The translations under genes and the position numbers were made by a program. This document shows positions 3,491-62,531 of a DNA stretch of 64,000 nucleotides, in pieces. The notes below the pieces were generated by a model. It was not told where the DNA came from, did no database searches, and saw nothing but the letters and a program-made list of their open reading frames with translations. Every line of letters begins with the position of its first letter. Position 1 is the stretch's first letter. Source of the DNA: Dioscorea cayenensis subsp. rotundata (taxonomy: Eukaryota; Streptophyta; Magnoliopsida; Dioscoreales; Dioscoreaceae); contig NC_052481.1 in the NCBI RefSeq assembly GCF_009730915.1, positions 1,364,001 to 1,428,000 of the forward strand, in the 5' to 3' direction.

Positions 3491-4047
3491 TTGAGTTTGT
3501 GATTTAGGTTGTAATAGAATGAGACGGGATGAGGAGCAGTGTTTGCACCTCACCTAGCCCCACCATACCCAAATGGTGGTATTCTAAATACCACAATCGC
3601 TACCTCGGTTTTTCTGTTTTTCTTCATCGCCCGGCGCCATATTTTTTATTTTTTTTTTCAATATATTTATGAAAGTAAAGTTGCAAACAAACAATTAAAA
3701 TTCCTAAAGACATTTATAAACTAAAATTTCTAAAACACATCCTTTATTCCGAAGAATCAAGAGATCCGTATAATATTTATTAATAAGTTAAAATTAAATT
3801 AAAATAAATAAAAATTTAATATTATTTTTAATTAAATCATTAAATATATAAGTATAATCAAAACACACAATTATTAAAATTGAGTGGATATAATCTTATA
3901 TTTTGATATGCAAATTGATAAAATTTAACTAATTCCCCTCGGGGCGACCACAACGGATGGTGTTGTTTCTGAGGTTGTAACTGGACTTGCAACTGTATTG
4001 AAATTTCTGAAATCTTCGGCTTTCTTTATCACGGCTGAAAAAGAAGT

Positions 4048-10625: not shown

Positions 10626-10634
10626 TATATATAA
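10626..10634 (+). promoter_or_regulatory. TATA box of COMT-like gene 2
   Basis: TATATATAA lies 49 bases before the ATG at 10675. It is followed by CCCTCCTCATCTCTTCA and a (CCA)n leader, matching the leaders of genes 1 and 3. Confidence 0.7.
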
Positions 10635-10674
10635 CCCTCCTCATCTCTTCACCACCACCACCACCACCATCAAC

Positions 10675-16614: not shown

Positions 16615-19600
16615 TTAGAAGTAAAACCCACAACTTAAGATCGATTTCATGATCCAAAAAGGTAATTCTTTCCCGAATAAGAAAAGGTTGAGGTGTTGAT
16701 GTTGAAATCCAAAAGACGCAAGATTGGCAGCAGGAGAACCCCAAGACGATGGAATGATGTGAATACGAGGACAACAACACATGTCCAAAAGGAATTTCAG
16801 ATTACTAATTTGCGGTTGAAATCTCCAGGAGGAAGTGAAATCCGAACTTTGGATAAGATCAAGAATAGCATGATGAGCGCAAAATATATGGTTAACCGGG
16901 ATCCGAAGTTCCAAAGCAGTTTGAAGCGCAACTTCAATAGCAAGTATGTCATCCGAGATGTTGTCCATCTTACTCTGAGAACCACTACCTGCAAGTGAGA
17001 TCTCATACTTAGTGTTTGTAAAGAAAAAAACCAAATGAGCTTACTTGAAGGTTGCGATTATTATCTGCATGAATGAATAGGAAGCCACCGTCAGCAGTAG
17101 TAAAATTATGCAGAATAAGTTTCCTGCCCAGCATCTCATTGGTACAAAAAGAGAAATCACCGACGTGGGCCACAGTTCTGGTAACAATGGAATGGAGATT
17201 TGGATGAACATGTTTAAATATAACATTACAGCGACAAAGCCAAATATGCCATGCGCCAGCCGCAATGAATGCTAGGGTACGCAGTGAATGACCAAACTCG
17301 GTGACCCAATTACCAGAGGAGAAACCGTTAATAAAAGTTATAGGAGTTTTCAGTAAAGAACTAAATTGATCTCATATATCCAAAGTACAAACACACTGAC
17401 CAAAAATGTGGTCAATGGTCTCACGATGGATACCACAGAACACACATGGAGAATCAGGGCCAATGTGAATACTATGAAGATATGCATAAGTGGACAGACG
17501 TCCTCTTAAACAATGCCAAATAAAGTGCTTAATTTTAGGAGCCACAGGAATCAACCAAACCATTTTCCACCCCTCCCACTAATCTGCATAACTATGCTGT
17601 TTGTTCAAAAAATGATAAACTGCAGAAGTAATTTTAGAGGTAGAAGAATTAGGCACCCAAACCCAATGATTGTTTGAAACATGATCAATTGAAGTAAAAT
17701 TCTTATCAGTAATATCAATATGATTTCCAAAGAGAAATTGAAACCCCAGGGGATCCTAGTGATCATCGATAATAAGGTAAGAAAAATTAATTTGATCAAA
17801 ATCAATATCCATGTTGAGAAAAGTAGGCTTCAAAGCAATCAGAATGTCAAACATCCAAGGATCCCAGAACATAGAAGTATTCACTGGATTAACAGAATTG
17901 ATTTTACAGTGATGCCTAAGGAAAGCAGCTGACTTACATAAACCACGAAAAAACCAGGAACACTTAGCAGGGACAGAATCATGCCAAAAATTAATTTTCC
18001 CATATTTATTAATTAAGATCTCAACCCACAAACTCTCATGAGAGTTTAAGTATTTGAAAATGTTTTTGGACATGAGGGAATGCTTAGCAAGAACCAGGTT
18101 TTTGATACCCAAGCCCCCCTCAGACTTACCTTCCATTAAAATATTCCAACTCACATTATGGATGCCCGTTCCATTGCCATTCCTGCTCCAAAAGAATTTT
18201 CGCACAACTTTGGAAATATCAGAAAGAATGAAATCAGGAATAGGATAGACAGTCAGAGTGTAAACTGGGACAGAGAGGAGGACAGGATTAATTAAGATCT
18301 CTTTAGCCGCAGGAGTAAGATGAAATTTGACCCAATTAGAAACACATCTCTTGACCTTGTCAACTATAGGCTGGAAAGTTTGAGAAGCCATTTTTTTTGG
18401 AGAAATGAACACTCCTAAATACTTAAAGGGAAATTGAGCTTGTCTTAGATTCAGAATAGAACAAATTCTAGTTAAAACATGTTTATTAAACCAAGACGGG
18501 AAGAAAACTTGGGATTTAGATAGATTGGGATGCTGCCCAGTGATTCTAGAATAATGAGATAAGCAAGTCTGGATATTTCTAGCAACCACTTGAGAAGCCT
18601 GAGTGATAAGGATCAAATCATCAGCAAACATAAGATGATTGAAATTGTGCTGCAAAGTGCTGTTGAAACCAGGAATCGAGTTATTTTGGAGATTAAAATT
18701 GAGCATAGAAGTAAGAGTTTGGGAAACTAGAATGAAATGGTAAGGCGAAATTGGGTCCCCCTGACGAATTTCTCTGGAAGAAGAAAACCAATCAGTAGGT
18801 ATACCATTAACTAAAAAAGAAAAAGAGCATGACTGAAGACAAGAAGCAATCCAAGAGATCCAAAGAGGAGGAAAGTTCATTTTGGCAAGAATGCCAAGAA
18901 TTGCACTCCAGTTGAGGGTATCGTATGCTTTTTTAATATCCAGTTTTATTATCATCCTAGGGGGACTATGGGTATCATTTTCTATCGAGTGGGCAACCTC
19001 TTGCAAAGCAATAATATTATCCATCGGACATCGATTAGGCACAAATCCCACTTGTTCACGACCAACAAGTTTATGAATAACAATTTTTAATCTGTTGGCA
19101 AGAAGCTTAGTGATAATCTTAAAACAGACATTACACAATGAAATGGGACGAAAATCAGAGACAAGCCTAGGCTTATCAATCTTCGGGATGAGAACAACAT
19201 AAGTTCTACCCCAAGAAGAAGGCAAACAGGAGGTTTTAAAAAAATATTGAATAGCTTCAAAAAGATGATTACCAACCACAAGCCAAAAGATTTTGAAAAA
19301 TTCGACATTGAAACCATCAGGTCCAGGGGACTTACCTGGGGGAAGATCAAGAAGAGATCGATGAACTTCCTCCATTGTAATATCACGATTGAGAATAATT
19401 TTATCTGAATCCGACAGCAAAGGAAGATCAGGAGGAAGAGCTTTGGTAAAGCTGGTTAGATTATTAGTAGAATCACTCCAGAGATTTTGGTAAAAATTCA
19501 TGAAGGCGTGATCAATGCCTGGCGAGTCACTAAAAACATTGCCATTATTATCCCCAATCTGAGAAATAAAATTGGAGTGAGATCGAGTACGACAAAGAGC

Positions 19601-20707
19601 ATGGAAAAAATGAGTGTTCTTGTCTCCATCCAAAACCCACTGTAAGCGAGCACACTGGGCCCACTTAATGCTATTCTGACGCTGCAAGGCAGCAAGTTTG
19701 GCATATAGATTTGTCAGAACAGATTGAAAATTGGGATCAATATCTGATAATTCCAAAGAACCAATATCAGCTTTAACTTTAGAAATGGCAGCATCCAAGT
19801 TATTCACCCCCGACCGAGACCAAAAATTGAGATTAGATCTAGTACGAGAAAGAAAATGAGTAAAAATATGCATGGGATTACCGTGCGGAGAAAAATCCCA
19901 AGCATCACGAACACAATCATGACAACCTAGATAATCAGCCCAGAAATTATCAAACTGAAAAATTTTCTTTTTATAGGTAGAGGATAAATTAATTGTGAGA
20001 AAAAGAGGGGAGTGATCCGAAAAAGAACGAGCAAGATGAGTAAGAGTATAGGATTTAAAAATACCATTCCACTCAAGATTGACTAGGCACCGATCAAGCC
20101 TGGCCCAACGACGAGCAGAGCCGTGTTGATTGTTGCACCAAGTGTAAGAGGAACCGGCGTATTTAAGATCCAAGAGGTTGTTACTATTAATAAAATCGTT
20201 GAAAAAATTTGATTTACGACTATAATGAGTGAAAGGGCCCCCCTTGTGTTCATCTCTGGAAAGAATAGAGTTAAAGTCTCCCAAGATAAGCCACGTGAGC
20301 GCTAAAGAAGAAAGCTTAGAAAGTTCATGCCAATGAAAACGTTGAGAGGAACAGCGAGAAGAGTTATAAACCACCAAAATGAGAAGGGTTTTAGTAAACG
20401 AAGAGGAGACCACTAAATGTAAAACACGACGAGAGACAGCGATAAGCCTAACCTGACCAATGGACGAATTCCAAAGGATAAAGATGCCACCTGAATAGCC
20501 GTTAGTGAGAATCGCAGCCCATTCCCAGAGCCTAGGAATAAACTTGCAGAGACGCTCAACCCGGGTAGAGTTGGTGCGGGTTTCATCAAGGCAAACCAAG
20601 AGGGGCTTAAGCTTTCTGATGAGTCTGAAGAGCCGAGAAGAAGTATCCCGATCGGAGATACCCCTACAATTCCAACAAAGAATTTTAGCTAGATTCATGG
20701 GAAACAA
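16615..20707 (-). pseudogene. LINE 1 ORF2: endonuclease, reverse transcriptase, zf-RVT, RNase H
   Basis: The first 983 codons (20707-17756) are uninterrupted. The apurinic-like endonuclease shows ILCWNCRGI, the position of the catalytic Glu in CLDETRTN, LILGDFNSI and SFSDHSPLFL. The reverse transcriptase shows SPGPDGFNVEFFKIFW, FRPISLCNVCFKIITKLLAN, IKLDIKKAYDTLNW, IRQGDPISPYHFIL and the catalytic FADD (LMFADDLILIT). A stop at 17756 ends this frame, but the same frame continues with only two more stops (near 17573 and 17369) through the zf-RVT finger (PKIKHFIWHCLRGRLST, CVFCGIHRETIDHIFGQC). One of the stops stands where a Trp is expected (TLDI-stop-DQFSSLL). An RNase H-like region (AIEVALQTALELRIP) lies in another frame at 17034-16615. 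Recently inactivated. Confidence 0.87.
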
Positions 20708-24250: not shown

Positions 24251-25150
24251 GGAAGCTCACCTTATTGAGTGTGCTTCACTTCCGGGTGGACTGTCGTACC
24301 GATACCCCACCGCAAGTGTGCGTCACTTGCATAGTCTTCACTCGGAATGTCTCATCGATCCTCTCTTTAGATGCATGGACACGCCATTGGTAATCCGAAG
24401 AAGCACACCTTACAATCAAGCGAATTCTGTTATTTTTTTATAAATGTGAAGTCAAAATTGTGCCGTATGGCGTGGCTGCACAATGCATCTTTGAACTTAT
24501 TCACACTCTCAAACCGTTGTCCTACTTGAAATGTCGATCCATCAGATGTTTGTGAAAATGAAGCAATACTGAACGCACCTGCAGGAGGATGTTGGGATAG
24601 AAATGTCTCCATGTCCGCATTCATGTTTTTGGAGATTGACTCCTTGTGGATGCCAACGCATAAGGTAGGGAACAAGTCAAGAATAATACACAGTAAAATG
24701 CAAAGTAATACACATGAAATCAATATAATACACATAACACGCGTATAATACACATGAAATGCATATAACGCACATGAAAGATATTGTGATACACATAAAC
24801 ATATACAACTACACAGAAAAGTAGTGATAATACTTAGGATGACACACGACATAATAAGAGTTATCTTTGTTGTTGAATTGCGATAGTGGTAAGAAGCTAT
24901 TAATGGTTGCTTCCGCTGCCCCACTGACTTCTTCAATGATGATGTCCACCACACTCTTCTTAAAAGTGTGGTGTATGTGGCTTTATCGCGTTGGAAATTT
25001 GCATCTGACTTAATTGGGCAAACCGTGCCGTATGAGTCAGGTGTCACAAACTTCACAGTGACCCAAGAAGAGTCCAGTGACCACCGCTCACATATCCCGG
25101 CCCCAACAACCTCCCATGCGATGAGGACCGTGAATTATAGTAGCCGTTCT
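24249..25150 (-). pseudogene. MULE 1 transposase N-terminus (MuDR DNA-binding domain)
   Basis: The minus strand reads VKFVTPDSYGTVCPIKSDAN, then, after an AT-rich spacer that looks like an intron (24680-24840), FQVGQRFESVNKFKDALCSH, AIRHNFDFTFIKK and, one frame over, NRIRLIVRCASSDYQWRVHA and FRVKTMQVTHTCGG. This is the FxVGxxF...C...WRVHAS pattern of MuDR-type DNA-binding domains. A frameshift sits in an A7 run at about 24430-24437. The first segment is matched by VKFITPDGYKTVSPIENDVD in MULE 2, so the two elements are related. Confidence 0.8.
24680..24840. repeat. degenerate AATACACATGAAA word array in MULE 1 (copy 2)
   Basis: AATACACA(TGAAA) repeats about eight times with variation (AATACACATGAAAT, ATAACGCACATGAAAG, GATACACATAAAC). 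It occupies the probable intron between the two N-terminal coding segments of the MULE transposase remnant. Confidence 0.65.
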
Positions 25151-27438: not shown

Positions 27439-29650
27439 GGTTTCATTGAAGAAAAACCAGCTTGTTTGGCCATTGATTCAAACTCTTGTGCAGTTCTCTC
27501 TTTGCCGCCATGATTATGAGCCAACATGGCCATATCCAAATTAAACAAATATTGTGTCACATTTGTGTTATCAGGAGCCACCGGAAGTATGCATTCTACC
27601 AATATCACTTTTCCATCTTTAGGCAGAGCTTTCCGGCAGATTTTGAGTATTTTAAGCCCATGCTCATCACTCCAATCATGTAGAATACACTGAAAAATTC
27701 AACACGTTATTAATATTTATTTATATTAATAAAAAAGAACATAAGCTTAATTGGTTAAATATACATATTAAATAATTTAATGTATACAAGCTACAAAAAG
27801 ATGAGGGTTTTCCATCCACTTCCAAGTTCAACTTATTACTAATGTTTGTTTGTTAACATATTATTATACAGAAATACTAATTCAAGCAAAGTTTTAAATC
27901 AAAACTTGCACAAATATTCTGATAGATTTCACAATTTATAGAACAAAAACATTAATCAATATTATTTTACAAATTCATTGAAATTAGTACTGTTTTTAAT
28001 AATCATATAATATAATCTTGTTTTCTGTTTTTTTTTTAATTTATATATTTATTATTGTAAGAGTGCATAGTTGTAAATATTAATATATCCAGTTAGAAAT
28101 GTCCATATTCCTATAAAATACTTAAATACATATATTTATCTTTATACCCTTGTGATATTTTCTTCTTTTTTTTTATGATAAAGAAATGAAGAAAGAGAGA
28201 CACACCTTCATCAAAATGGCATCTCCGTTTGGAATATTGTTAAACATATCTCCACCAATGTGCTCCACGCCTTTGTCAAAACACATAACAAATAAAAATC
28301 ATTTAAAACCTGGACAATGTGAACAAATTACCTTAAACATATATAGTTTTTATTATTACACTTCAATTTTACATTGAAAGGGACTTGACCTTTTGCATGA
28401 GAGTCGTGTGCCCTAAACAATTTGGTCATAAAACATTTAAGACTTGTGAATATATGTATATATAGTTTCCAAAACATCAATATTTACTAAAATTATTTTT
28501 GTAAAAAAAATACACTTCTATTATTGCTACATCCTAATTTAATGTGCAAACTAACTATAGGTCGACCTTCAATGTTTTCAATAGGTTCCTACAAGATTTT
28601 ATATATTCAATAAATTTCTATTTTTAAAATAAAATGTCGAAGGCATTTATAGTTTTTTGAATTTACTATTTTATTTTTATATAATCTTATTTGTACTTTT
28701 CATCCTCTTTTTCCAATCTATGAGCCTGTTCAACCATCCCTCAAGTCAATTAGTCTATTGAGTATTGATATCAGGTTCTTTATGTAAAATATTTTATCAT
28801 TTCAGAGAGACAGATTTGAACCTCAACTCAAATAAAAAGTGAGAGCATATTCCTGATGTAATTTATTAATATTGGTAATTAAAACAAACATGAAACTGAT
28901 TAGATCAGCGAGGGAGGGAGAGAGAAATACCCGGAATAAGTGGGGCTTGAGAGATAACATGAGGGAGATCAAAATTAATACCCTTAATATGCTTATGTTT
29001 AGCAACAACTTGAGCAAGAGTACCACCAACACCACCACCAACATCAACAAGGACATTCACATCATCAAACCCTCTATACTTCTCCAGAATCCTCTTCATT
29101 ATGATGCCTGAATGGTTCTTCATGGCTTCATTGAAGACCTTGTTGAACCTTGGATCAGTGCCTTGGTACTCAAACGGAGTCATGCCGTGAGCCATTTTGA
29201 AAGGGATCCCTCCGTTAAGGACAGCGTCCTTAAGATAGTACCAGCTTTCCATTAGGACCTTGTCTTGGTCCATCAGGCCTAGAGCGGATAGAGTGAAGCC
29301 GTCTTCATTTTGGGCGAGGTATTTGACGACGGGGGCAGCGCCGTAGCGGTGGGTGGTGGCGCCGGAGATGGGGTCAGTGGAGAGGGAGCAGATGAGGATA
29401 GAGTAACTGGAGAGGAGGCGGAGGATGCGGTCAAGCATGATTGGGGTTGAAGGAGTGGAGGAAGGGAGGAGGGAAGTGATTTCGGTGGCGGAGAGGGAGT
29501 TGGGGAGGCGGCGGAGATGATGTTGAAGAGGTTGAGCTCAATGGCGGCTTTCAAGGTCATGGGGAGGATGGAGGAGTTGAGGAGCTGCAGGGCTTTGATC
29601 AAGGCTTGCTCGTCGGTGGCATTAGAGACGGTGTTGTTGGCGGTGGCCAT
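27393..29650 (-). pseudogene. COMT-like gene 3, inverted paralogue of gene 1, frameshifted
   Basis: Exons 29650-28931, 28270-28206 and 27689-27393 keep all splice sites of gene 1, but their sum is 1082 bases, one short of a whole number of codons. Compared with gene 1, one base is missing in the C-rich stretch near 29508-29513, after the codons for LFNIISAAS. Beyond it the frame is otherwise open to the normal stop. The catalytic HDWSDEH, both Glu residues and LVDVGGGVG are present. The pocket is altered (FEYHG is FEYQG, with Pro in the preceding TPFEYQ), and NPGGKER is NHGGKER. Introns and 3' flank match gene 1, so it is its inverted duplicate. A single missing base could be a sequencing error; otherwise this is a recent pseudogene. 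Confidence 0.8.
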
Positions 29651-33289: not shown

Positions 33290-36200
33290 CCTCAAGATGC
33301 TTCATGCACTCAGAAACACAGGACTGGTAGCAATTTTGATGGCACTCTGGTTATCATAATAGATAGGAGTATAGGCAGATGTGGAGACACCAAAGTCCAA
33401 CAAAATCTAACACAACCAAAGAGCTTCCTTAGCAGTGGAGGATATAGCACCATACTCAGCCTCATCAACGAAAAGAGAAATAGTGGATTATCTTTTCCAA
33501 GAGATAAGTGAATCTCTAAGGAAAAACGCAGGAACTAGTTGTAGATCTCTCGATCAAGAGCATCAATCGCCCTAATCGACGATCACGAGATGCACTCAAC
33601 TTAAGCGAAGACGTGGCAAAAAAAAGTAGAGATCAAGTGATAGTGCCACGGAGGTAACGAAGAACCCGTAGAAGTGCAGCATAATGAGTAGATCGGGGTT
33701 ACTAACAAACTAGTTAAGAATGTGAACATCATACGCAATATCAGGCGAGTGATGGTCAAATAAACAAGCATCCACAAGTACTCAATAGCGGGTAGGATCA
33801 ATAAACAATTCACCATCAGAAAAGGAGAGACGATGATGTAACTCAATAAGAGTAGAAGTAGTACGGAGATCAGTGATGCCAGCTCATCGAAAAATATCAG
33901 AAATGTACTTTTGTTGAGACACCAAATAATCTCGATGAGAATAAGCGACCTCAAGATCTAAAAAGTAACAAAAAGTTCCAAGGTCTTTTATTTGAAACTT
34001 GGTGTGTAACCGTTATTTTAGAGAAAAAATATTATCAGCATCATCACCAGAAATAACCATATCGTCAGCATAAAGAAGAAAAATAATGAGGCCTCGAGGA
34101 GTCTGCCGAGTGAAGAGCGCATAATCATGAGAGCTCTCAGTGAAACAAAGAGCAAGAACCACACAACGAAAATGCTTAAACCAGGAGCGAGGAGCCTGTT
34201 TGAGTCCATAAATAGCCCGAAAAGATGACAAACATGTTAAGGAGGATGAGAGAAACTAGGACGAGGAGTCATATAAACATCTTTAGAGAGATCCCCAGGT
34301 AAGAAGGCATTAGTCACATCTAACTGATGGAGTGGTCAGTGACGAGTGGCTATAATAGCGAAAAAAAAACACGAATAATAGTCAACTTGGGCACAGGAGC
34401 AAATGTCTCCTCATAGTCAATAACATACTCCTAATTGAAACCACGAGGAACAAGACGCGCCTTATAACGCTAAATGCTACCATTAGCACAGGTCTTGACC
34501 CGATGAACCCATCGACAGCTGATATGAGTAACACCAGAATAAAGTGGAACAAGCTCCAGGTATGCATGTGTTGAAGGGCATCGAGTTCCTCCGTTACAGC
34601 CTCGCCGCTCAATGGGGATGAATCATAGCCTTGTGATAATACTGTGGCTTAGAATGGGAGTGAACAGTAGTAAGGAAGGCTTGGAACTCTTGGCAGTAAG
34701 TAGAGGAAAGAGAAAGTCCATACCGGGAAGGAGGACGGCAAATAGGGTTTGGTTAACTACCGGGAGGCATCATGAGCATCTTTAGCAAAAGAGAGAGCCA
34801 CGGGAGAGGAAGCGAATCACTAGAACCATCAGTGCAACCAGAGGATGGATGAATAGAACAAGTGTCATTGGAGATTACGAGAGAGGCACTAAATTGGCAA
34901 TAACGGAAGAACCCGGAATAATTACTGGAGGGTGGAAAGAGGATGCACTAGAGGAAGGCTGAAGAAAAGAAAGGTGTGTCTTCAAGAAAAGTTACGTGAT
35001 GGGAAATACGAAGACGATGAGATAGAGGATCCTAGCAGAGATAGCCCTTGTGTTCAGAGTTATAGCCTAGAAAAATACACTTGACGGAATAAGGAGAGAG
35101 TTTGGTTTATTCAACAGTAGGTAAAAGGACAAAAAAAAGTACAACCAACAGTGCGAAGGTGACCATAAGAGAGAGATTGAGAGTGAAGATGCTCATAAGG
35201 AGTGACAACAGAAAGAGTGGTGGAAGGAGTTCTATTGATGAGATAGACGGAGGTAGGAATGGCCTCAGCCCAAATTGTTTGAGGAACAGTGGAAGAAAAG
35301 AGAAAAGCACGATCAGTGTCCAAGATATGATGATGTTGTGTGTAAGGACATGATTGCTGAGCCAGAGTGTCATGAGTATAGAGTAGCTCGCAAAAGGATG
35401 TAGAGAGATACTCATGTGCCTCATGCCGAACTGAGTATATACAATTTGTGCAAATTGAGAATAAATGACAAAGACCTCAAAGCGAGAACGCAACTGGTAA
35501 AGCCAGGTATAATGGGAGAAATCATCAATAAAGCTAATATAGTAGGAAAAACCTCCAAGAGATGAGAGTGGGACTGGGCCCCAAAAATTAGAGTGAACAA
35601 GGTCAAAAGGAGATTCTAAAAGAGATTCACGTGATGAGAAGGGAAGAGTTGTGTGCTTAGCTAGCTGACAACCCATACATGGATGTAAAGAAGTAGTAGA
35701 AATAGAATTAAGACTACCTGAAGTAGTTAAGAGTTTTAAGCGAGCACTAGACAGGTGACTGAGGCGACTATGCCAACGTTCGAGAGAACACACAAATGCA
35801 ACAATTGCAGAAGGTTGACGAGCGGGAAGATGATGATGGTCTAAGTGATAAAGTCCGCCAATTCTACGCCCGGTCCCAATCCTCTGGCCTATAAGATGAT
35901 CCTCCACAGAACAAGCAGAAGAAGAAAGAGTGACTGTGAGACCATGATCAGTAAGCTGGTTAACCAAGATAAGTTTTAGAGCTAAGCCAGAAACATGATG
36001 GATATCGGGAATATAAAATGAGATGGACTGAATACGACCGCACTGCGTGATAAGGTGAATGCTCCCATCAGCAGTGCGAACATGTGAAATTAGGGGAGGG
36101 GTAGAGATAGAAACTAGGCTAGAGACATCTGCAATCATATGATGAGTGGCACTAAAATCTAAAATCCAGGAAGACATACTAAAAACAACAGTCATAGAAG

Positions 36201-36440
36201 AAGTACGGGACTGCATATCATGCTTCATATCATGGATTTGCTCGGTAAGCTGAGCGACCTGAGAGAGTATATCAGCAGAAAAATCAGGAGCAAAGACTAA
36301 AGCAGCATGGGAGGATGAAGAGATAACAGAAGAAAACGGCCTAGGGCGAGACTACTGCTCTTGCAGTTGTTGAAGCTTAGGACACTGACGCTTCATATGT
36401 CCGTAATCGTTTGCGTAATCGGCACATGACAAAAGATCCT
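33290..36440 (-). pseudogene. Copia element 2 gag-pol remnants
   Basis: In minus-strand order: a zinc-knuckle remnant near 36420 (YGHMKRQCPK, whose second Cys is Tyr); a protease remnant WILDFSATHHM, where WILDSGATHHM is usual; a pre-integrase zinc finger (LERWHSRLSHLS...CMGCQLAKH); an integrase core DLVHSNFWGPVPLSS...SFIDDFSHYTW in which the first catalytic Asp appears as Asn; reverse transcriptase YGLKQAPRSWFKHF and LLYADDMVI near 34050-34200; and an RNase H motif DNQSAIKIA near 33340. The longest open piece is 36228-35107. Frameshifts and stops separate the rest. Most of gag is missing. Confidence 0.85.
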
Positions 36441-40368: not shown

Positions 40369-43300
40369 AATAAAAGTGGATAAACCACTGATTTATTAAA
40401 AGGAGAACAAAAGTATAAAGTGCTAAATCCTCTCACCAGAAGTGAGGGGAACAAAGTACAGAAGAGAAAGCAAAGATGCAGAAAGTAGAAGAAAGTCTAA
40501 GCAGGCTAAAGACACCGTCTAGCATCTCAGGCCTATTTAGAGATGTAGTAGAAGCAATTATGCCGGAGCAGTGTCGTGGTCAGGATCGCCAGTAGGATTT
40601 GAGGCTCTAGCGCTGTAGAAGTTGAGTGAGCGCTTGATTGATTGTGATGCTCCATTGAGACTTTGTTGATATCTGTCGGCTGCTGTTGAGAACCAAGAAA
40701 GAAGCATGTTAGCAATTTTATAAATAATATTGAGATGCAAAGATGCAGTCAATTGAAAGATGCGATTGTTTCTTTCTAGTCAGATATTCCACAAGATTGC
40801 ATAGGACGTGAGGTCCCAGAGGATTCGGTGCTGAGGGACTAAGGATGGTATCCAAGTGGTCCACAATGAGGGAATTGTCTGTGGTAGAGAGTTTGCTTCT
40901 AAAATTTGTGAAAAGAGTGCCCAGATGCGTTTAGAGAATTCATAGTCGATGAAGAGGTGTTGAAGATTTTTAGATGAATTGTGGCAAAGGACACAGGTGT
41001 CGGTGGAATTTTGAAAATTGTAACCTTTCTTGAAGAGATTTGTGAGAGTGAGGATTTTGTCCTCCCCAGCAAGCCAACAGAAAAGAGTGGTTTTGCTTGG
41101 GCAGTGATTTTTCCAGAAAAGAGGATAAAGCGGGCTGCGTGTTCCACCATCAATGAGAAAATTATAAAAAGATTTAATAGTGAATGTGCCACTTTTATCA
41201 AGGGTCCAAGTGTGAACATCATCTTGAGTATGGGTGCAATCAGGGATAATTTCAAGAAGAGCAGATAACATGTCGGGGGTGGAAGTGGGAAATAAGAATT
41301 CAGGGTTGTTTAGAAACTGAGTGAATTGTCTGATGGTAATCCATGGAACAGTACAATCATTGAAAAGATCGGGCCAGCAATCTTTGAGACGAAGTCCAGC
41401 ATGCCAAAGATCAGACCAAAGTGAAGTGTTAGAACCATTTCTGATAGATTTCGTGATACATGATCGGAAGGAAAATAATGTGGAAGTCACACCTACCCAA
41501 AAAAAGGACTTATTTCTGGGTGGGATATGAGAAAGGACTCCGAATGTGTCACTTATGAAATAATTAGCGTGGATGATTTTGGCCCAACTGCTATTTGGAT
41601 TGCAAGTTAATTTCCACCACCACTTTCCAAGTAAAGCATTATTGAAGGTCTGAAGGTTAAGGATTCCCCAGCCTCCCATTTCCCGCGGTCTAGTGATTCT
41701 GTTCCAGGAAATCAATCTGACTCCTTTGGGTCCCAGATTGGGGCCTTTACAAAGGAAATCTCTCTGGATTTTATCAATATCTTTGATCACCCAAGCGGGG
41801 AGCTTGAAGACTAACATCCAGTAAACAGGGACGGTTGAGAGAACAGAGTTAATGAGCGTTAAGCGCCCACCAAGTGATAAGTAATTCGCTATCTAAGCAG
41901 TGAGCCTGGAGCGAACCAGATAGAGGCACTCCTAAGTAGGTGATTGGGAGACAGCTACGTGAACAGTTTAGGATTCTAGCTGAGGAGTGATGAGGTTGAT
42001 AGCCATAGTTAGAGGAGTACAGGCAGCTTTTTGAATAATTGATGGTTAAGCCTGAGGAACCCTCATAAAGATACATGATAAGTTTAATGATATGAAGATC
42101 TTCTTGTCCTCCAGTAGAGAAAATTAGAAGGTCATCAGCATATTGGAGATGGCAGATGTTATCAGAATGATTCAAAGGAACCCTCACCAGGACTTTGGAT
42201 TTGAGAGCGTGGGAGAACATAGCGCTCAGTACATCAGCGGCGAGGGAAAAGAGCAGTGGAGAGAGGGGATCGCCTTGCCTCAGACCTCTTTTGCAAAGAA
42301 TGTAACTCTGAGTTGATCCGTTGATAATGAATTGGGCCTTGGCAGTGCTAAGTATGGAATGAACCCAGGAGATCCATTTAGGTCCAAAGCCTCTAGCAGC
42401 AAGAATTTCGAGAAGGAAATTCCAATCAAGAGAGTCGAAGGTTTTAGCGAAATCCACTTTAAAGATGTGTCCAAGACGTTTATGTTTTTGTAAGTTGAAA
42501 ATGATTTCTTGTGCAATGACAATGTTGTCCGCTATACATCTGCCTTTAATAAATCCGGATTGTGATTCATCGACTAGCAAACTGATAACAGTACTGAGGC
42601 GATTAGCAAGTATTTTTGGAGATTATTTTTACAAGTGGAATTGATAAGACCGATGGGTAGAAAGTCCTTCACATCACCAGCGTATTATTTTTGCAATAAG
42701 AGCAATATGTATCCGAGTTGATGCGCTCAAGGTTGATGGTGCCTTCAAGAAGTCCTCATAAAGTTTAACAAGGTTGTCTTGTAGGATGGTCCAATGTTTT
42801 TGGAAGAAGAAAATAGGGAATCCATCCCCGACCCGAGAGCTTTGTCGGGGTTAAGGCTAAACATAGCTTGTTTAATTTCTTCGATGAGTGAAAGGTAGTT
42901 CAAGCTGGGAGAAATCAATTCTTTTCTTGTAATCAAAAAGAAAATACCAATCCAGGAGAAATCTATTTGGCAAAGGAGTGCCAAAGATAGAGCGATAGTG
43001 ATCAGTGAATATTCTACCAATTTGAACATTATCGTCAAACCAGATACCATTATGAAGAATACGAGGTATGTGATTTCTATTTCTCCTGCCATTTGCAACT
43101 TGGTGAAAAAATTTAGTGTTGGAGTCCCCTTCTCTAAGCCAAGTAATCATGGAGCGTTGTTTCCAGTAAATTTCTTCCTGGTTTAAAATGTTATAAAGTT
43201 CAGAGCGAATTTGGGAGAGTCGGTTGGATTCTTCCTCTGAGAGGGGTCTACTTTCAACAATAATGTCAATGGAATGTAATTCTTCGAGAAGACTGCTTTT

Positions 43301-44372: not shown

Positions 44373-45372
44373 NNNNNNNNNNNNNNNNNNNNNNNNNNNN
44401 NNNNNNNNNNNNNNNNNNNNNNNNNNNNNNNNNNNNNNNNNNNNNNNNNNNNNNNNNNNNNNNNNNNNNNNNNNNNNNNNNNNNNNNNNNNNNNNNNNNN
44501 NNNNNNNNNNNNNNNNNNNNNNNNNNNNNNNNNNNNNNNNNNNNNNNNNNNNNNNNNNNNNNNNNNNNNNNNNNNNNNNNNNNNNNNNNNNNNNNNNNNN
44601 NNNNNNNNNNNNNNNNNNNNNNNNNNNNNNNNNNNNNNNNNNNNNNNNNNNNNNNNNNNNNNNNNNNNNNNNNNNNNNNNNNNNNNNNNNNNNNNNNNNN
44701 NNNNNNNNNNNNNNNNNNNNNNNNNNNNNNNNNNNNNNNNNNNNNNNNNNNNNNNNNNNNNNNNNNNNNNNNNNNNNNNNNNNNNNNNNNNNNNNNNNNN
44801 NNNNNNNNNNNNNNNNNNNNNNNNNNNNNNNNNNNNNNNNNNNNNNNNNNNNNNNNNNNNNNNNNNNNNNNNNNNNNNNNNNNNNNNNNNNNNNNNNNNN
44901 NNNNNNNNNNNNNNNNNNNNNNNNNNNNNNNNNNNNNNNNNNNNNNNNNNNNNNNNNNNNNNNNNNNNNNNNNNNNNNNNNNNNNNNNNNNNNNNNNNNN
45001 NNNNNNNNNNNNNNNNNNNNNNNNNNNNNNNNNNNNNNNNNNNNNNNNNNNNNNNNNNNNNNNNNNNNNNNNNNNNNNNNNNNNNNNNNNNNNNNNNNNN
45101 NNNNNNNNNNNNNNNNNNNNNNNNNNNNNNNNNNNNNNNNNNNNNNNNNNNNNNNNNNNNNNNNNNNNNNNNNNNNNNNNNNNNNNNNNNNNNNNNNNNN
45201 NNNNNNNNNNNNNNNNNNNNNNNNNNNNNNNNNNNNNNNNNNNNNNNNNNNNNNNNNNNNNNNNNNNNNNNNNNNNNNNNNNNNNNNNNNNNNNNNNNNN
45301 NNNNNNNNNNNNNNNNNNNNNNNNNNNNNNNNNNNNNNNNNNNNNNNNNNNNNNNNNNNNNNNNNNNNNNNN
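44373..45372. other. assembly gap of exactly 1000 N
   Basis: The run of N has a round length, so the true distance is unknown. It hides the 5' end of LINE 2, the left end of MULE 2 and anything between. Open frames spanning it are meaningless. Confidence 0.99.
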
Positions 45373-54912: not shown

Positions 54913-55245
54913 TAAAAAAAACATACAATTACCACGGGTGGCTTGGCAGTCAAGAATCCAAACAAGAATATTAGGCACATTTTTGACAAACATGTGTATT
55001 ATTTTTCAAAAAAAAAATTTTTTTAACAAAATTTTAAAAAAAATTAATATTAATAGAGAGAAATGTATATATAATCAATTAAAAAATAATTCTTAAATTA
55101 AAATAAATATTAAGGAAAATCAAACCACCAAAAAGCCAAAATCTTTGATTTAAGATCCTAGTGTTGATGTGATCTAGACCGTCCACGTTTTCTGGATATA
55201 AACGTAATTTTAAAGTTCTTACAGGGGTATCAAGGTCCAAAATCC

Positions 55246-55252
55246 TTTTTTA
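55246..55252 (+). promoter_or_regulatory. possible TATA box of the rps11 gene
   Basis: TTTTATAAG lies about 68 bases before the ATG at 55316 in AT-rich sequence. The spacing suits a plant core promoter. The signal is weak on its own. Confidence 0.35.
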
Positions 55253-55315
55253 TAAGCTAGGTTTTGCCAATTAGTGGTTATCTCTGTTCTCAAGCTCGAG
55301 CATTCCCAGAGAACA

Positions 55316-58179
55316 ATGGCGATGCTGCGCGCTGCTTCGAGATCGATCCAGCTCTCTCTCCGCTCCTCCCTCGCCCTCAATGAATCTCTTGCCTCTTCGC
55401 CCGCACCCCTTCCGCTTCTCTTCGCTCGCCACTTCAGTGGCAGCCGCTTCCGTGATGACTTCCCTCCTTATCGGTGAGAAATCCTTGAAACCCTAGATTT
55501 ATTCTAGTTTTTTTTCATTGTTTTTGGTGCTGATTTGATTTCCGGGAGACGTTATTGCTAGGGTTGAGCCGACGACATTGCCGATGAACCGGGGGGTCCG
55601 AATCGTGCCGGAGAAGAAGACGTTTGTGGTGGAGGCTTTTGAGGAGAGGGCCACGCTCAACGAGAACATTGTGGTGAGACTTTTAACTATAGTATCATTT
55701 GAAGTTTTTTTCTAGTATTGTTTTATTTGATGGTATGTGTATTTGATTTAGTAATTGCAGTTCAGGGTTTTTCTTTTAAGTATATATCTATATGATGGTT
55801 CTCCATTTGATGAGCTGAGAAATTCTGAACTTGTGTTTCTGATCTATTTCTGAATTGAGAATGCTAATTAGATGCAGCAAAACCATTTGCAATGATAGAA
55901 AATGTCAAGTGTTAGGAGCCTGTGTTGTTGTATTGTGTGCAGATAATGACAATAGGGTAAAATATACCAATCTGGTCTAGTTCACTTTTCAATAACCTAA
56001 TGAATTGGTTTTTGGTTGGATCCTTGGTAAACATAAATTAGAGCTGAGGGAATCCTCAGGGGAGGTTTAGAATTAGTTGTCAGATAATGATTTTTATAAC
56101 AATGATTTATATTGATCAGTGTTGTTAAGGCGCTCCCTAGGCCGCAGGCACAGAGCTAAACCTTCTTAGTGCCTCCAATGGTCTAAGGCAAGGCACTTTT
56201 AGTCAAGTGAGGCTTTTTTGCGTTTTTTTGCGTCTTTTTAAGCCCAAGGTGTAAAAAAAGTGCACATGCTTGAAAAACTGTTAGTTTTTTATTGTTTAAA
56301 AGAGTTTTTTATTGTTTAAAAGAGCCATAATTTACTAGGCATTAGTATTTGAAAAGTCTATAAGTCTATTAATAGAGTAGAATTTAATAATTAAGCAATA
56401 AACATTTCACTACTTTATACAAATCCTCATGGATGACTATAATTCTGAATTAGGAAAAGAAGATGAAAACATGAATTTAGAGTTTGACATTAATGATGAT
56501 GATTATTAGCTGCTTATGATTTTAGGAATAGAATTTTGACTTTAAGATAAGAAAAGTTTGTTAATATTAAAGTTTAAGGCTTTGATACTTATATTTGTCT
56601 ATGACTCTTATGATATACCGTATATATCTATATATATATTCTTTATGTGTATGTAGCTTACTTCAATTAGGCGCTCATTTTTTTTTACGCCTTGCGTCTC
56701 GGGCGATAAAAGGGTCCTAGTGCCTCGGGTGTGTCTTGCGCCTTTAACAACATTGATATTGATGTGACACAATCAATCGCAGTTATTGATAATTATCTTT
56801 TTTTTTTTTTCTCTCTCGGTATTTGTTAAGAGTAAATATGCCTTATAGCAACTTATATTATGTGATTTTAAATCATTGAGAATGGTTTGGGAATAGCTAT
56901 CTGCATTATAACATATTTGCACAACTTATTCAGTGGGATAAGCATAACAAAACTGGTAGCTAGGGGGGTGTGTGTTTGCAAGTAAGATGATTTTCATGAG
57001 CTTGAGTTCAAGTGTGTTTATTTGGAGGTAGGATGACTTTTGGAAACAGAGTTCATATGCTTTGTTGGTTGTATTGGTGGAGGTTTGGTAACGACTGCAT
57101 GTCTGGTGCGGTTTTATTATTTGTTTAGGGCTTCTTACATGTATATTTTCTAAAAACCTGAAATTTCATGTGGACTATCAGAAACTTTATTTCAATTTGT
57201 ACACCTAAAATTTGAAATTCTTAGATATTTATACCCTGAAGTCCAATTAACTACCAATTATAATTTAATAATGATAGATTAAAATAGGTGAAATATCTCT
57301 TAGAACCTATATATATACATCTATAAACATTTAACTTTTTTATATAACTATATAGGTTATATATTTACCTTTTGCATAAGGTTCTATTGATATTTTGAGT
57401 TATAATCACGTATAAAAGCAAATTTATGCATAAACAGATACTAAATTTATCAATATGATTACTATATTTAATTCTTTATGCACCTAAACAGATACTTAAG
57501 AGAATCTAAATTTCAATTATTAAGTAGGGTAAAAACAACTTGATACTCTAGTGCAATAATCCATGCTTACCTCCCAAAGGAGTATGTATGTATAATCTTG
57601 AATTTCAGGGCCATATATACAAGGAGACATTTTTTGTTGGTATATTTATAATTTTGGGTTTTTACATGGATATATATGCCCCAGGAAAAAACAAGGGGCG
57701 AGACTGAGAGGCTTGGGCTTGCCGGTGCGGGCAGTTTCAAATCCATGAACTTCGTACAGAGCATCTTGCTCTCGGAGAAAGATGAGCAATATTCACGGAA
57801 AAAGAACACAGATTTTGTCCATGTCTTACTGAAAAAAAATAAGACCTTCGTGACCGTGACAGATGCTAGGGGTAATAAGAAGACTGGGGCCTCCGCAGGT
57901 TGTTTGGAAGAAAGAAAAGGGCGGTCTCGTCTTTCTCGGTATGCTGCTGAAGCAACTGCGGAACATGTCGGGCGATCCGCCAGAAAGATGGGTTTGAAGT
58001 CAGTTGTCATGAAAGTGAAAGGATCTACTTTTATCAGGAAAAAGAATAAAGTGATCTTGAGCTGGAGAGAAGGTTTTCAAGGTGAAGGAGTAAGAGATCA
58101 ATCTCAAATTATGTACATCCACGATGTGACCCAACTTCCACATAATGGATGCCGACTCCCCAAAAAACGTCGTGTTTAA
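55316..58179 (+). CDS. rps11: nuclear gene for mitochondrial ribosomal protein S11, with stomatin-like presequence
   Basis: Exons 55316-55473, 55562-55673 and 57685-58179 join by GT-AG introns into 254 codons without a stop. Exon 1 encodes an Arg/Ser/Leu/Ala-rich N-terminus, nearly free of acidic residues, ending FARHFSGSRF, a typical mitochondrial presequence with a likely peptidase site. Exon 2 continues MNRGVRIVPEKKTFVVE and FEERATLNENIV, both motifs of mitochondrial stomatin-like proteins (SPFH family). Exon 3 (164 codons) is a complete bacterial/mitochondrial-type S11: TFVTVTDARGNKKTGASAGC, SRYAAEATAEHVGRSARKMG and YIHDVTQLPHNGCRLPKKRR. S11 sits on the small-subunit platform near the mRNA exit. 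The gene looks like a mitochondrial gene moved to the nucleus that took its targeting sequence from a stomatin-like gene. Intron 2 holds a MITE. Confidence 0.87.
56120..56752. mobile_element. hAT-like MITE in intron 2 of the rps11 gene
   Basis: The ends TGTTGTTAAGGCGC and, inverted, TGTTGTTAAAGGCGC bracket 633 bases. Subterminal GAGGCACTA- and GCCTTGCG-type motifs occur near both ends, and the centre is AT-rich. Flanking TTGATCAG and TTGATATT could be a decayed 8-bp duplication. It is non-coding. Confidence 0.65.
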
Positions 58180-58289
58180 ATAGGGGAGTACTTATCTTAT
58201 ATTTCTTTCTATTGAGTATAGATCTTCTCTTTTCTCTCCCAATGCGGGGGGAAGGTTTCTCTCTTCAGCACAACACTCAATGGTGATGC

Positions 58290-58893
58290 ATGACTTCATT
58301 ACTTCATCCTTTCACTTACTTTTTTTTTTCTATAACGAAAAAGCGGTTATGTGGATATGAGCTACCCAAAAAAGAGAAGCTCAGCAAGCCAATGGCTCAA
58401 TGGTTCTCACCAACCTTGAAGAAGAGTCCAGAGAGGGGTGTAGAAAAGAAGAAGGTTCACAAAGATGGTGTCTGGTCTGGATTCTTTGGTCATCTTCTTG
58501 CCTTGGAATACATTATACATGACCTGCCATATTGTAGTCTACTTGTTCTATCTTCTGTGAGCTATGATGGGCTAGTGGTATAAGTTTCATGGTCATGGTC
58601 TTATAATTTCTTCAATGAAGCGGACGGGAAATGCTAGCCTTCGTTCAACTGCTCTAGCCAGGAAGAACTGAGAAAGTTGGTAGTTGAATCTAATAACAAA
58701 GTTGAGGGTGAAGTAGATCTTGTTAATCTTAAAAAACACTGAGATGCAAACTGACAATGTTCAAGAGCCAACGAGTACAACAACAACAACAGATGTTGTG
58801 GCCTCAGAAGAAGCAGAAGAAGAAGAAGAAGAAGAAGAAGTGAATCCTGAATCCAAATCAACTGAAGAGAGTAAACTAGAAGAACAAAATTAA
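58290..58893 (+). other. coding-like segments downstream of rps11, not recognised
   Basis: Three plus-strand pieces read like protein: LPKKEKLSKPMAQWFSPTLK followed by GVEKKKVHKDGVWSGFFGHL (58360-58500); SSQEELRKLVVESNNKVEGE (58660-58735); and MQTDNVQEPTSTTTTTDVVA followed by a run of Glu and KSTEESKLEEQN, ending at a stop (58742-58893). They lie in different frames, with stops between. They could be the decayed 3' exons of an older gene at this site or part of a long 3' UTR. I do not recognise the family. Confidence 0.35.
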
Positions 58894-59068
58894 CATAGTT
58901 TTTATACTTATATCTGCATGTTAGTGTGTGTGTGTGTGTGTGTCATTGCCAATATTTGCTTTGCATGAATGTTGTTGCACTATTGAGACAGTGAAGGAGG
59001 GGAATGAATTATGTCCTGCATGTGCACCTGAAGTTCTATCATTTTATAATTAATGATTTTCAACTTTT

Positions 59069-59099
<31 letters not shown>

Positions 59100-61870
59100 T
59101 AGATCAAACGCATTTAATATAATTTGGATTTTCTTTTCCTTATAAAACTACCAGAGATTATGATGCTAAATAAATCAACTACTATAATAAAGAAGAGAGG
59201 AGACATTTATATGCATGCTACTTAGCCTACTTACAAGATGCAAAATAAATTTATAATATGAAACATCAGGTAAAGCAACAAAAGATAGAACTTTTGGTAT
59301 CACACCCAAAAATAGGAAATGGGAAAGTTATGGGTCAATTTTACAAATAATTTTTTTGTTTAAATACCAGATTTTTTTTATGTAAAGTGTTCGTGTTCTT
59401 GCTTAAAATATAAATATAAATTTTATCTTATTTATATAAAAACACTGATAAATTGAAATATTAATTCTTGATATCTATTTACATTTGTCAAAAATTTTAC
59501 TTGGATATGCAAGCAATCAATTTACGTTTCGCTTCGCTTTAACCTACGGTAAATATTTATATAAAAAATCTTTTTACTTTGAACAGCTAGAAGGTAGAAA
59601 CTTCATATAATACACAAATAATTTCATGATTTTACAACACATGCAAACAAATCTTTTTTTTTTTATTAAACAATAACACTACTTTCCAAAACAAGTCTTA
59701 TATGAAAACAGCTGGTTTTTTTTTTCTCTTTTTTTTTTTCAACATACAAACAAATAAAAATACAATAAAATATTATCCACAGAAACACTAGTGAAGAAGA
59801 CAAGAGCCAGACAGAAAGAAAGATCTGGATTTTTTTTAAATGAAAAAGAAATTAAAAAAAAAAGAAAGAAAGAAAGATGTGGCAAAGAGTGCTGTCCATG
59901 TGGTTGTGTGACTTGTGTCCCCTAATGCTCACTATCTATCCCTGCAAATTATTAAGCTGTTCACATGCTCTTCAGTCCTTTCTTTAACCCCTGCTTTTAT
60001 TTATTTATTTATTTGTTAAAGAAAGAAATAAATTTGAAACTTTCTATAATAAAAACAATTGGTATAGTTTAGTTTTAAAAAATCTAATAAATATTTATTA
60101 TGCAAATAAATAAATATAATTAAATTTTTTTTGTTATTAATAATATATTTAATATAAACAAAATTTAAATATAATAAAAAATATTTAAATTTTTTAAAGC
60201 ACTCTAATAATAATAGATTATATATCTATTTTAATATTATGTAATCATTTTAAATTTATTGGAAACATAATTTGAATTAAAACCACTTTTTTTTTAACTA
60301 ATTAATATTCTTATAATATTGAGTACGGGTAGTAAAGTTGTCCCATGCTTAATGATGATAGTTTTTGTAATTCTAATTGTGGCTCTTGCTTCAAGAGAAA
60401 AATAATCGCCTTGCTTTTTAATCTATTTCAATTCACTCATATTATCACATTAAATTAAGACCTACCTTTCCCTTGTTTATTTTAATTCTTTACCCCAACA
60501 AGCATCATGATGATATATTGATATTAGTATTTTTTTTTTCTGCTTACAATTTTTTTTAGTTTTTTAATATTTAAAAATATTTTATGATAGTCATTAAATT
60601 ATAATTTAATATTATTATTTATTATTTTTGATGATATGAAAAATTTATTATTAATTATTATATTATTACACCACTAAATATTGTATTGTAAATTATTGTT
60701 AATTACTGTTATGTATTATATACAAATTAATAATAATTATTAAATGTACATTTAAGGATTATAGGTGTCGCAATTTCTAATTTAGAGATGTTGATAAAGA
60801 ACATATTCTCTATTTATATATAAATATATATATATATATTCAATAGTTTTCACTTTTGAGTACTTATATTATTATGGCAAGATTAGTTTAATTAGCAATG
60901 TGGACTCAGAGTTGCACGTGACTCCACAATAATATTGGGGCCATGCTTCAAAACATTACACTTTTGCTTCCATTATCAAAGCACATCATCTTTATATTTA
61001 TCATTTAATAAATGGTATATATTATTTCTATGTAATAGATATTGTTTTAAAAATGAATCTAATCTTACCCAAGGTGTAAATTATTGAAAGTAATAGTATC
61101 TAAAAAAAATTTTAACACTAGAGTAGTAGCATATATTGATGTTTAAATTTAAATCACCTTGACTTAAGTGCACAAAGATAAAGATATCTGCATAAACAAT
61201 TATGCAAATTATGTAAGAACACAATATATTTTATATAATTATTATAGGTTAAAATCCCAACCAAATATATTATATAGGTTTAATTCAACCAGAAATTTAA
61301 ATTGATAAAAAGAAAAACCTAAGTTAGTATATTTATATTTATTTTTTTAAAATTAATTAATGTGAGGCTATAGATTATTCTAACAGGTGAGTTTTGATAC
61401 ATACTAATCTATTAGATTTAATTAGATGAATTTTTTATAATATATATTTTTTTAGCAAATATGACAAGAACATATATTACTAGGGGCACACGCATAAACC
61501 TTAAAAATAATAGTAGTTTTTACATATGCTCTCAAGACTGACATAAAAATTAAATTATAAATCTACTCCCTTAAACGCTAGGCACCATTAAGTGCGGTTT
61601 GTTTTAAACCATTGCAATAAAACTTTTGCAAACCAAACCTTATCTAATAGGACAATAGTGCTAAACCAAAAGCAATTTGGTTCCTCTTTATAACAACAAC
61701 CTAACTCATTAATTTAGTGACTACAAGATTTTTAAAAACAACAAACAACAACAACTGATCAACTTTGCCAAAACCTTGTCCCGAATATACATCATCCATA
61801 CAGTCTCATAATCTCATTCCATGATTAACAACACAAACACCCTCACAAACAACAAAACAACATCATAATC
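58894..61870. other. AT-rich intergenic region
   Basis: No gene or RNA is supported. It contains a (GT)n tract near 58924-58942, an (ATT)/(TA) tract near 59070-59098 and the second copy of the 54425 block at 60651-60934. Poly-A, poly-T and short AT repeats make up much of the rest. Confidence 0.5.
60651..60934 (+). repeat. second copy of the 54425-54727 block
   Basis: Same orientation as the first copy. Shared stretches include TGTTAATTACTGTTATGTAT, AAAGAACATATTCTCTAT and TTAGTTTAATTAGCAATGTG. Left of 60651 the sequence differs from that before 54425, which is MULE 2. Confidence 0.8.
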
Positions 61871-61919: not shown

Positions 61920-62531
61920 CTAAGTCTGAATCCTATTAACAAGAGCGAGAGCATTACTAGTGACTTGAGCCACTTCAACAACCTTCTTCCTAACAGCGGC
62001 TCGAAAGCCGGCTTCATCGGCGGCGGCTCGGCGAGGCAATTCATCAAGACAAGTGTTCTCATCAGTGAGAGCAGCACTAACCCAAGTCTGAACGTTACTA
62101 AGGTGCCAGCTAAAGGCTTGGCTTCCAGCTCGGCCCATATGGCTCATCTCTTTCATAGAGCTACGTAGCCTGTCAACACTGTCGGCTAGGGTTTCAATGC
62201 AGTCTTTAATGGCGCCGGATTGGTGGGAAGGAAGGTTGGTGGAGGAGATGAAGGAGGAGACGGCGTGGGCACGGTCGGAGCTGACGGAGAGAGCGGCGTT
62301 AGCTAGCTGGCGGTGGCTGTGGTGGACGGTGGTGGCGAAGGTGGAGAGGCATTGCATGCAGAGATCTGGGTAACGTGTGGTGCTGCATGACTTGCGGATG
62401 AACTCTGTGTCTTTGCATGATGATGATGATGATGATGGGTGTTTGATGGCATTAATGGTGGATATGGAGAAGATTAGGAAGAGAAGAAGGAGAAGATGGA
62501 GGAGTGATGATGGAGATTGAGATGATTTCAT
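61920..62531 (-). CDS. plant invertase/pectin methylesterase inhibitor-like protein
   Basis: A single uninterrupted frame of 203 codons on the minus strand, the usual length and intronless form of this family. Residues 1-28 form a signal peptide (LLLLLFLIFSISTINA), so the protein is exported to the cell wall. The PMEI four-helix domain follows: the conserved hairpin with two Cys in FIRKSCSTTRYPDLC, then LSTFATT, and the second Cys pair in IKDCIETL and ENTCLDEL, then QVTSNALALVNRI at the end. Such proteins inhibit pectin methylesterase or acid invertase; which one cannot be told from sequence. The leader before the ATG has a CCA repeat. Pro-to-Ala and similar pocket differences were not assessed. 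The frame looks intact and functional. Confidence 0.88.
   Translation of the reverse strand: MKSSQSPSSLLHLLLLLFLIFSISTINAIKHPSSSSSSCKDTEFIRKSCSTTRYPDLCMQCLSTFATTVHHSHRQLANAALSVSSDRAHAVSSFISSTNLPSHQSGAIKDCIETLADSVDRLRSSMKEMSHMGRAGSQAFSWHLSNVQTWVSAALTDENTCLDELPRRAAADEAGFRAAVRKKVVEVAQVTSNALALVNRIQT

Follow-up and report, generated by a model that had tools for sequence, protein, structure and literature searches.

The window analyzed here, the whole 64,000-nucleotide stretch G000:C11:1364001-1428000 from Dioscorea cayenensis subsp. rotundata, carries at 55316..58179 of its plus strand a chimeric gene in which exons of a stomatin-like gene are joined to rps11, which encodes the mitochondrial ribosomal protein uS11m. 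The intact mitochondrial-type frame lies in nuclear DNA: contig C11 is 22.8 Mb long, and the window contains nuclear-type genes and transposons. The gene is preceded by a 5' flank (55095..55315), copied with the stomatin-like gene, that comprises a putative promoter and 5' UTR. Exon 1 (55316..55473) encodes the mitochondrial presequence of the stomatin-like donor and is followed by an intron of 88 nt inherited from the same donor (intron 1, 55474..55561). Exon 2 (55562..55673) begins as donor exon 2 and continues, in the same frame, as the last part of donor exon 3 (FEERATLNENIV). The 5' part of intron 2 (55674..57675) is copied from donor intron 3, and it is followed by the first three codons of rps11, ATG CCC CAG (57676..57684), which are now intronic and of which CAG provides the AG of the splice acceptor. 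Exon 3 (57685..58179) runs from rps11 codon 4 to the stop at the conserved KKRRV end. All of these features are on the plus strand.

The spliced exons amount to 765 nt, or 254 codons, with no internal stop. The two junctions read TCG|gtgaga...gctag|GG and GTG|gtgaga...ccccag|GA, and the 56 nt directly upstream of the second acceptor AG contain no other AG. Pfam places Ribosomal_S11 at residues 135-253 of the 254-aa product (E 7e-17) and gives no Band_7/SPFH match in it. The product is 100% identical to a database protein, P0001, '30S ribosomal protein S11-like [Dioscorea cayenensis subsp. rotundata]'; thus an independent annotation has the same gene model. The three exons, canonical splice sites and open 254-codon frame proposed in the first-pass annotation are therefore as stated there. 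Exon 3 had also been described as a complete S11: it is indeed of mitochondrial type, but it is incomplete, its codons ATG CCC CAG being intronic. Chance or mis-joining of exons is ruled out by the matching structure of the parent gene and by the identical annotated protein. A structure prediction of the product, with a mean pLDDT of 47, was not used in the argument. Scans of viral contigs and genome contigs gave no plant relative.

The stomatin-like parent gene

A genome search with the D. alata stomatin-like protein gave at least 14 matches. Seven of them together form a single full gene at C11:1248434-1256206, which lies on the same contig about 163 kb ahead of the chimera. Two matches each fall at C11:1094723-1095068 (minus strand), at C11:1419316-1419670 (within the window) and at C515:36827-37182, and the remaining match is a fragment on C7. 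The first-pass annotation had named a stomatin-like gene as presequence donor and proposed looking for its full-length version elsewhere in the genome; that version exists, and a block-by-block match bears out its role as the donor.

Counting donor positions from G000:C11:1246934 as position 1, window positions 55095-55634 equal donor 1229-1836 at 85.2% identity (5' flank, exon 1, intron 1 and the start of exon 2), and 55633-57675 equal donor 2222-4255 at 90.9% (the last part of exon 3 with some 2 kb of intron 3). The gap between the donor blocks means that about 385 bp are missing within chimera exon 2, with the junction at about 55633/55634, and donor exons 4 onward are absent; no stomatin exon was found in the window after 55673. 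Donor sequence returns on the plus strand at 58670..59122, which equals donor 10209-10631 (84.9%) and corresponds to flank about 0.9 kb beyond the donor's stop, and a further piece of the 3' flank lies at 59666..59821 (donor 10621-10773, 91.7%). Exons 1 and 2 are thus stomatin-like as the first-pass annotation had read them, but exon 2 is more than a simple "SPFH start": it unites pieces of donor exons 2 and 3 on either side of the deletion, and no SPFH domain is present.

The boundary of exon 2 and intron 2 in the chimera is the boundary of exon 3 and intron 3 in the parent gene, after NENIV. The donor has the same exon end, AACATTGTG|GTGAGA, and its following exon starts AAAGCAATCA behind CAAACAG. 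The shared exon end together with this next donor exon shows that the second splice donor of the chimera is genuine and inherited. Homology to the donor stops at 57675, one base ahead of the rps11 ATG (57676). In donor intron 3, a segment of about 112 bp or more occurs twice in direct orientation (donor about 4144-4255 and 4595-4706); both units run past the point equivalent to 57675, and the insertion site therefore lies in a repeated segment. Within intron 2, the stretch 56118-56760 appears by eye to be flanked by inverted ends (GTTGTTAAGGCGC ... GCGCCTTTAACAAC), as a small DNA transposon would be.

The predicted targeting sequence is recognized by homology, the N-terminus of the product being homologous to proteins named stomatin-like protein 2, mitochondrial. 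Exon 1 is 85% identical to the D. alata stomatin-like protein over 60 positions and 88% identical to that of D. rotundata over 58, gap included, and its residues 1-43 are identical to the D. rotundata paralogue P0122. Used as a query, the presequence retrieves 17 proteins, namely the product itself and 16 proteins with a Band 7 domain, Dioscorea on top. The amphipathicity of the presequence is not above that of shuffled sequences (p=0.15). Exon 1 also contains RHF|SGS, which we take to resemble a processing motif.

Relative to its sources, three coding indels were seen in the chimera (15 nt, about 285 coding nt and +6 nt), and all three keep the frame. The 15-nt indel may be an expansion in the donor, as judged from P0124, which is also without these nucleotides. 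In the full donor gene (L020-L023, L028-L030, L035) single bases appear to have been added in exon 2 and close to where exon 1 ends, through either assembly error or real damage, and the donor's database protein is marked low quality. In D. zingiberensis, P0124, P0125, P0126 and P0128 are short Band 7 proteins encoded on 50,744,574-base contig(s). In Dioscorea, duplications of the stomatin-like locus thus seem to arise easily.

Mitochondrial-type rps11 and the source of exon 3

Mitochondrial relatives, among them P0002, P0003 and P0012, have MPQEKT at the corresponding position, and 57676-57684 is thus read as the mitochondrial ATG CCC CAG. A search of the genome for S11 gave at least 15 matches, seven of which are the window copy, a copy on C515 and five other mitochondrial-type copies. 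These five nuclear copies of mitochondrial DNA (NUMTs L010, L011, L012, L015 and L016), located at C9:14.27 Mb, C16:17.24, C16:14.54, C9:10.97 and C9:13.85, were fetched with 10 kb each. The other eight matches are on C2249 (probably chloroplast), C1022, C20, C5 (two), C10 (two) and C12; L002, L003 and L004 are the ones among them that were compared further.

The five NUMTs have at least 1.4 kb in common with one another around rps11. The homology of the window copy to them covers only about 57692-58182, at 96.1, 96.1, 93.5, 91.0 and 90.8% identity. A plain NUMT is rejected as a description of the locus, since no flank is common to it and the five NUMTs and the sequence upstream is donor intron up to 57675. 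L012 has a piece of bacterial-type LSU rRNA nearby, which fits mitochondrial DNA. L010 and L016 correspond to each other along almost their entire length, a snoR71-like match included (L010 8181-8287, L016 8557-8662); some rps11 NUMTs therefore seem to have arisen by segmental duplication within the nucleus, and the five are not all independent.

The ancestral 5' end of rps11, ATGCCCCAGGAAAAA, is absent from all five NUMTs, which have unrelated sequence instead. The 5' end of the window copy is thus older than that of the mitochondrial DNA from which the NUMTs came, hinting that the 5' end of rps11 may have recombined in yam mitochondrial DNA. In L011, ...LIVLARAETERLG stands in place of the first rps11 codons, and 216 open codons lie between one stop and the next. 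Apart from its 5' end, the NUMT frame is open and contains an internal ATG (MNFVQS) that is the start of an annotated Dracaena protein, P0029; an rps11 frame of the NUMT type could start there.

An in-frame insertion of 6 nt, two Leu codons at 57766..57771 (plus strand), is present in all three copies of the chimera and in none of the five NUMTs. The stop codon of rps11 is TAA in the window copy versus CAA in the mitochondrial-like copies, and this is the sole C-to-T difference from the NUMT proxy within the frame; the transfer may have been RNA-mediated or DNA-mediated. Beyond the stop, a segment of 490 nt (58180..58669, plus strand) is likewise found in all three chimera copies and has no match in the donor locus or in the fetched NUMT stretches; it is possible that it is older mitochondrial DNA. 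A protein-level search for mitochondrial flank homology around rps11 was negative; the DNA comparison with the NUMTs, which supersedes it, gave a hint of resemblance over some 15 nt beyond the rps11 stop. The segment contains an open frame of 97 aa, and P0137 is the same frame on a 1,272-base contig.

The mitochondrial genome itself is not part of the assembly GCF_009730915.1, in which cox1 has seven matches, all fragments and none complete; the absence of an intact mitochondrial rps11 there is therefore uninformative. The D. rotundata mitochondrial genome has been assembled elsewhere in 76 scaffolds (LC219374-LC219449; PMC5604175). A report on D. opposita gives rps11 as present in the mitochondrial DNA (PMC12837428), and one on Trichopus zeylanicus, of the same family, does not list it (PMC12293161).

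Residues 1-95 of the product have no match in the other 119 S11 proteins among the best 120 of 368 (best E 0.15), and a presequence common to other plants' nuclear rps11 was not found among these 119. In a tree, the S11 core groups with mitochondrial-type sequences of monocots, outside the grass clade, with weak support. The first-pass annotation had set this acquisition apart from those of rice, and the stomatin-like donor, the unrelated N-termini and, weakly, the position of the S11 core agree with it.

Sister copies and sequence change in exon 3

At least three copies of the chimera exist, the genome searches scoring best candidates; the window copy is intact and the other two are broken. 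The C515 copy matches the window over 55248-59036 at 96.2% and may be an allele or a paralogue of the window copy. It has lost 20 nt, among them the acceptor and the first codons, and a single additional A at about 57831 shifts the frame. All 12 acceptor offsets that were tried run into a stop. With an AG six bases into the exon as acceptor, however, the reading frame would be preserved as far as the additional A, so that the verdict of a broken C515 copy depends on this single base, within a run of A. The frame of the copy at C11:1.09 Mb is broken four times, once by a deletion of 8 nt and three times by an indel of one base; its S11 was not among the matches of the genome S11 search and was found with the stomatin-like query. 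Indels of a single base should be treated with caution in this assembly, given the doubtful single bases of the donor gene and its low-quality protein. Between the window and C515, 6 of 158 positions differ in exon 1, versus 23 of 1980 in intron 2.

Change in the rps11 frame was measured against a mitochondrial-like proxy consisting of two NUMTs that are identical over rps11 and may be related by duplication; an earlier conservation test, in which a monocot consensus mixed changes before and after the transfer, is superseded by this one. Over 157 codons, the window copy differs by eight nonsynonymous and four synonymous changes, no stop and one 6-nt in-frame insertion. There is no synonymous excess (8 versus 4, p=0.36). 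Seven of the eight replacements, however, are to residues seen in homologues, versus an expected fraction of 0.39 (p=0.007), the residues accepted at each column being those of 91 further S11 proteins, drawn from the 119 that accompany the product among the best 120 of 368. In three older NUMT controls, each with one stop, accepted replacements number 5 of 8, 7 of 18 and 10 of 19 (p=0.16, 0.59 and 0.16), and these controls look neutral. Four of the eight replacements match grass-type nuclear S11 (expected 0.11, p=0.007), compared with 2/8, 2/18 and 2/19 in the NUMTs; the grass-type set is 12 nuclear proteins, 11 from named grasses and P0042, which was taken as one. These p-values rest on eight changes.

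The proxy has the residues of P0002 at the eight replaced positions, and thus the changes are on the nuclear side. Eleven of the 12 changes are also present in the other chimera copies where these are readable, and therefore predate the copying. After copying, exon 3 of the window acquired one change, which is synonymous. C515 acquired two synonymous changes, besides those at the deletion edge and the breaks, and the C11:1.09 Mb copy acquired five nonsynonymous and one synonymous, plus its breaks. The sequence comparisons thus offer modest evidence, resting on few changes, for constraint on the line of the window and C515. Two observations argue against constraint: F207I in the window copy alters a position where 91 of 91 homologues have F, and exon 1 has diverged strongly between the window and C515.

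Origin and status of the gene

The alignments show a partial stomatin duplicate with an rps11 frame in its copied intron 3, an in-frame loss of about 385 bp, the later exons gone, and three copies of the whole. It is proposed that a stomatin-like gene whose presequence was already present was partially duplicated, and that the rps11 frame arrived in intron 3 of the duplicate, starting at its own ATG. An in-frame deletion and the loss of later donor exons, with deletion and arrival in either order, would have been followed by further copying. The donor promoter would drive the transcript, and splicing would connect the donor's site after NENIV to the AG in the third rps11 codon. Import into mitochondria would be directed by the stomatin presequence, and cleavage near RHF|SGS would leave S11 with an N-terminal extension. 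Such an extension should be tolerated, as solved mitochondrial S11 chains have long N-terminal parts, the match beginning at residue 189 of 314 and 180 of 304.

The event looks like a young, independent transfer of rps11 with a stomatin-like presequence. We lean slightly toward a young nuclear uS11m gene at the coexistence stage, a redundant second source beside mitochondrial rps11; coexistence is preferred to completed replacement because mitochondrial rps11 is reported to be kept in a congener. For the function of the window copy, the chances appear about even. The open frame, the splice sites, the identical P0001, the bias to accepted residues and the synonymous nature of the window's later change were counted in favor of a functional gene. 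Counted against it were the two broken copies, the lack of a synonymous excess, F207I, the divergence of exon 1, the amphipathicity of the presequence (p=0.15) and the D. opposita rps11. The first-pass annotation had taken the open frame as an argument for function. The frame is open, but this is weak evidence by itself with two sibling copies broken, and exon 3 is still stop-free 38% of the time after 25 random substitutions.

It is quite possible, if somewhat less than probable, that the locus is a chimeric pseudogene, with rps11 sitting in a dying stomatin duplicate, the window copy merely unbroken as yet and the mitochondrial gene at work. Two of three copies are broken, no significant synonymous excess is found, and the D. 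opposita mitochondrial DNA is reported to contain rps11. An rps11 frame is also open over 216 codons in a NUMT, L011, and the genome has at least five other mitochondrial-type copies with flanks. This reading has to contend with replacements biased to accepted residues, unlike those of the three NUMT controls, and with coding indels that all keep the frame, though the 15 nt may be a donor expansion. The splice acceptor and donor sites are intact and the annotated protein P0001 is an exact match; moreover, the break in C515 hangs on one extra A in a run of A, in an assembly whose single bases are doubtful.

A more specific version of coexistence is rather doubtful in our judgment: a gene caught mid-move, with an imported nuclear uS11m and the mitochondrial gene side by side, a mixed family of copies, and replacements converging on the grass-type nuclear S11. 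If true, nuclear-made uS11m would adapt along a repeatable path, four of eight replacements being grass-type residues.

Completed replacement, in which D. rotundata no longer has a working mitochondrial rps11 and the chimera is the only source of uS11m, seems improbable. It draws on the replacement of the ancestral 5' end (ATGCCCCAGGAAAAA) in five of five NUMTs and on the Trichopus zeylanicus mitochondrial DNA, for which no rps11 is listed. The NUMT frame is otherwise open, though, and could start at MNFVQS like P0029, and the D. opposita mitochondrial DNA is reported to have rps11. One old monocot transfer common to the grasses, with the presequence swapped later, is very improbable: the four of eight grass-type residues would suit it, but the 96.1% nucleotide identity to Dioscorea NUMTs, the weakly supported position of S11 outside the grass clade and N-termini unrelated to those of grass nuclear S11 all speak against it.

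The kind of transfer is already known. In the grass sdh2-rps14 gene, rps14 lies in an intron of nuclear sdh2 and an upstream exon provides the targeting sequence by splicing; the host remains intact, both products are made by alternative splicing, and expressed mitochondrial rps14 pseudogenes persist long after the transfer (PMC1543663). Similarly, the host of yam rps11 is the copy of a gene whose product is mitochondrial, the rps11 frame occupies one of its introns, and its upstream exons are the predicted targeting sequence. Unlike sdh2, this host is a duplicate that lacks the later exons and about 385 bp, and the parent gene is still present at another place on the contig. A model in which an intact host is spliced as in sdh2-rps14 is rejected, since no stomatin exon follows 55673 and donor flank resumes past the stop.

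The presequence of rice rps11-1 seems to have been copied from atp2 (PMC2631504); of the rice precedents that the first-pass annotation had named, this one is borne out, and one from coxVb is unconfirmed. The same gene has thus moved in grasses and in yam, each time with a borrowed presequence, but the yam event is independent, has another donor and is younger (96% identity to mitochondrial-like copies). The presequences of carrot rps10 and Arabidopsis sdh3 come from hsp22 and hsp70 genes (PMC2631504), and these were likewise gained by copying an existing targeting signal, whereas the yam donor is stomatin-like and the signal was acquired by a frame arriving in an intron of the copy. The chimera's rps11 comes from the same source DNA as the NUMTs, five of which share at least 1.4 kb around rps11; unlike them, the window copy matches over the rps11 frame only. 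No report of a stomatin-like presequence donor was found in the open-licence literature, and this donor looks new within the literature searched.

The locus suggests that a moved organelle gene can gain a promoter, a presequence and splice sites at once if it arrives in an intron of a copied gene whose product is mitochondrial, its own third codon doubling as the splice acceptor. The assembly of the gene can be read stepwise because the parent, other mitochondrial-type rps11 insertions and two broken sisters are present in one genome. Yam is a staple crop with sequenced relatives, in which the coexistence stage and its resolution are testable.

Elsewhere in the window, pieces of O-methyltransferase genes (Methyltransf_2, Dimerisation) lie at 75-1013, 10405-11490 and 28905-29650. 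LINE-type reverse transcriptases, a gag/pol remnant and a MuDR-type fragment occupy 17756-20707, 40780-42580, 35107-36228 and 24430-25056. A run of 1000 N covers 44373-45372, and an open frame for a pectin methylesterase/invertase inhibitor (PMEI) is found at 61920-62531 on the minus strand.
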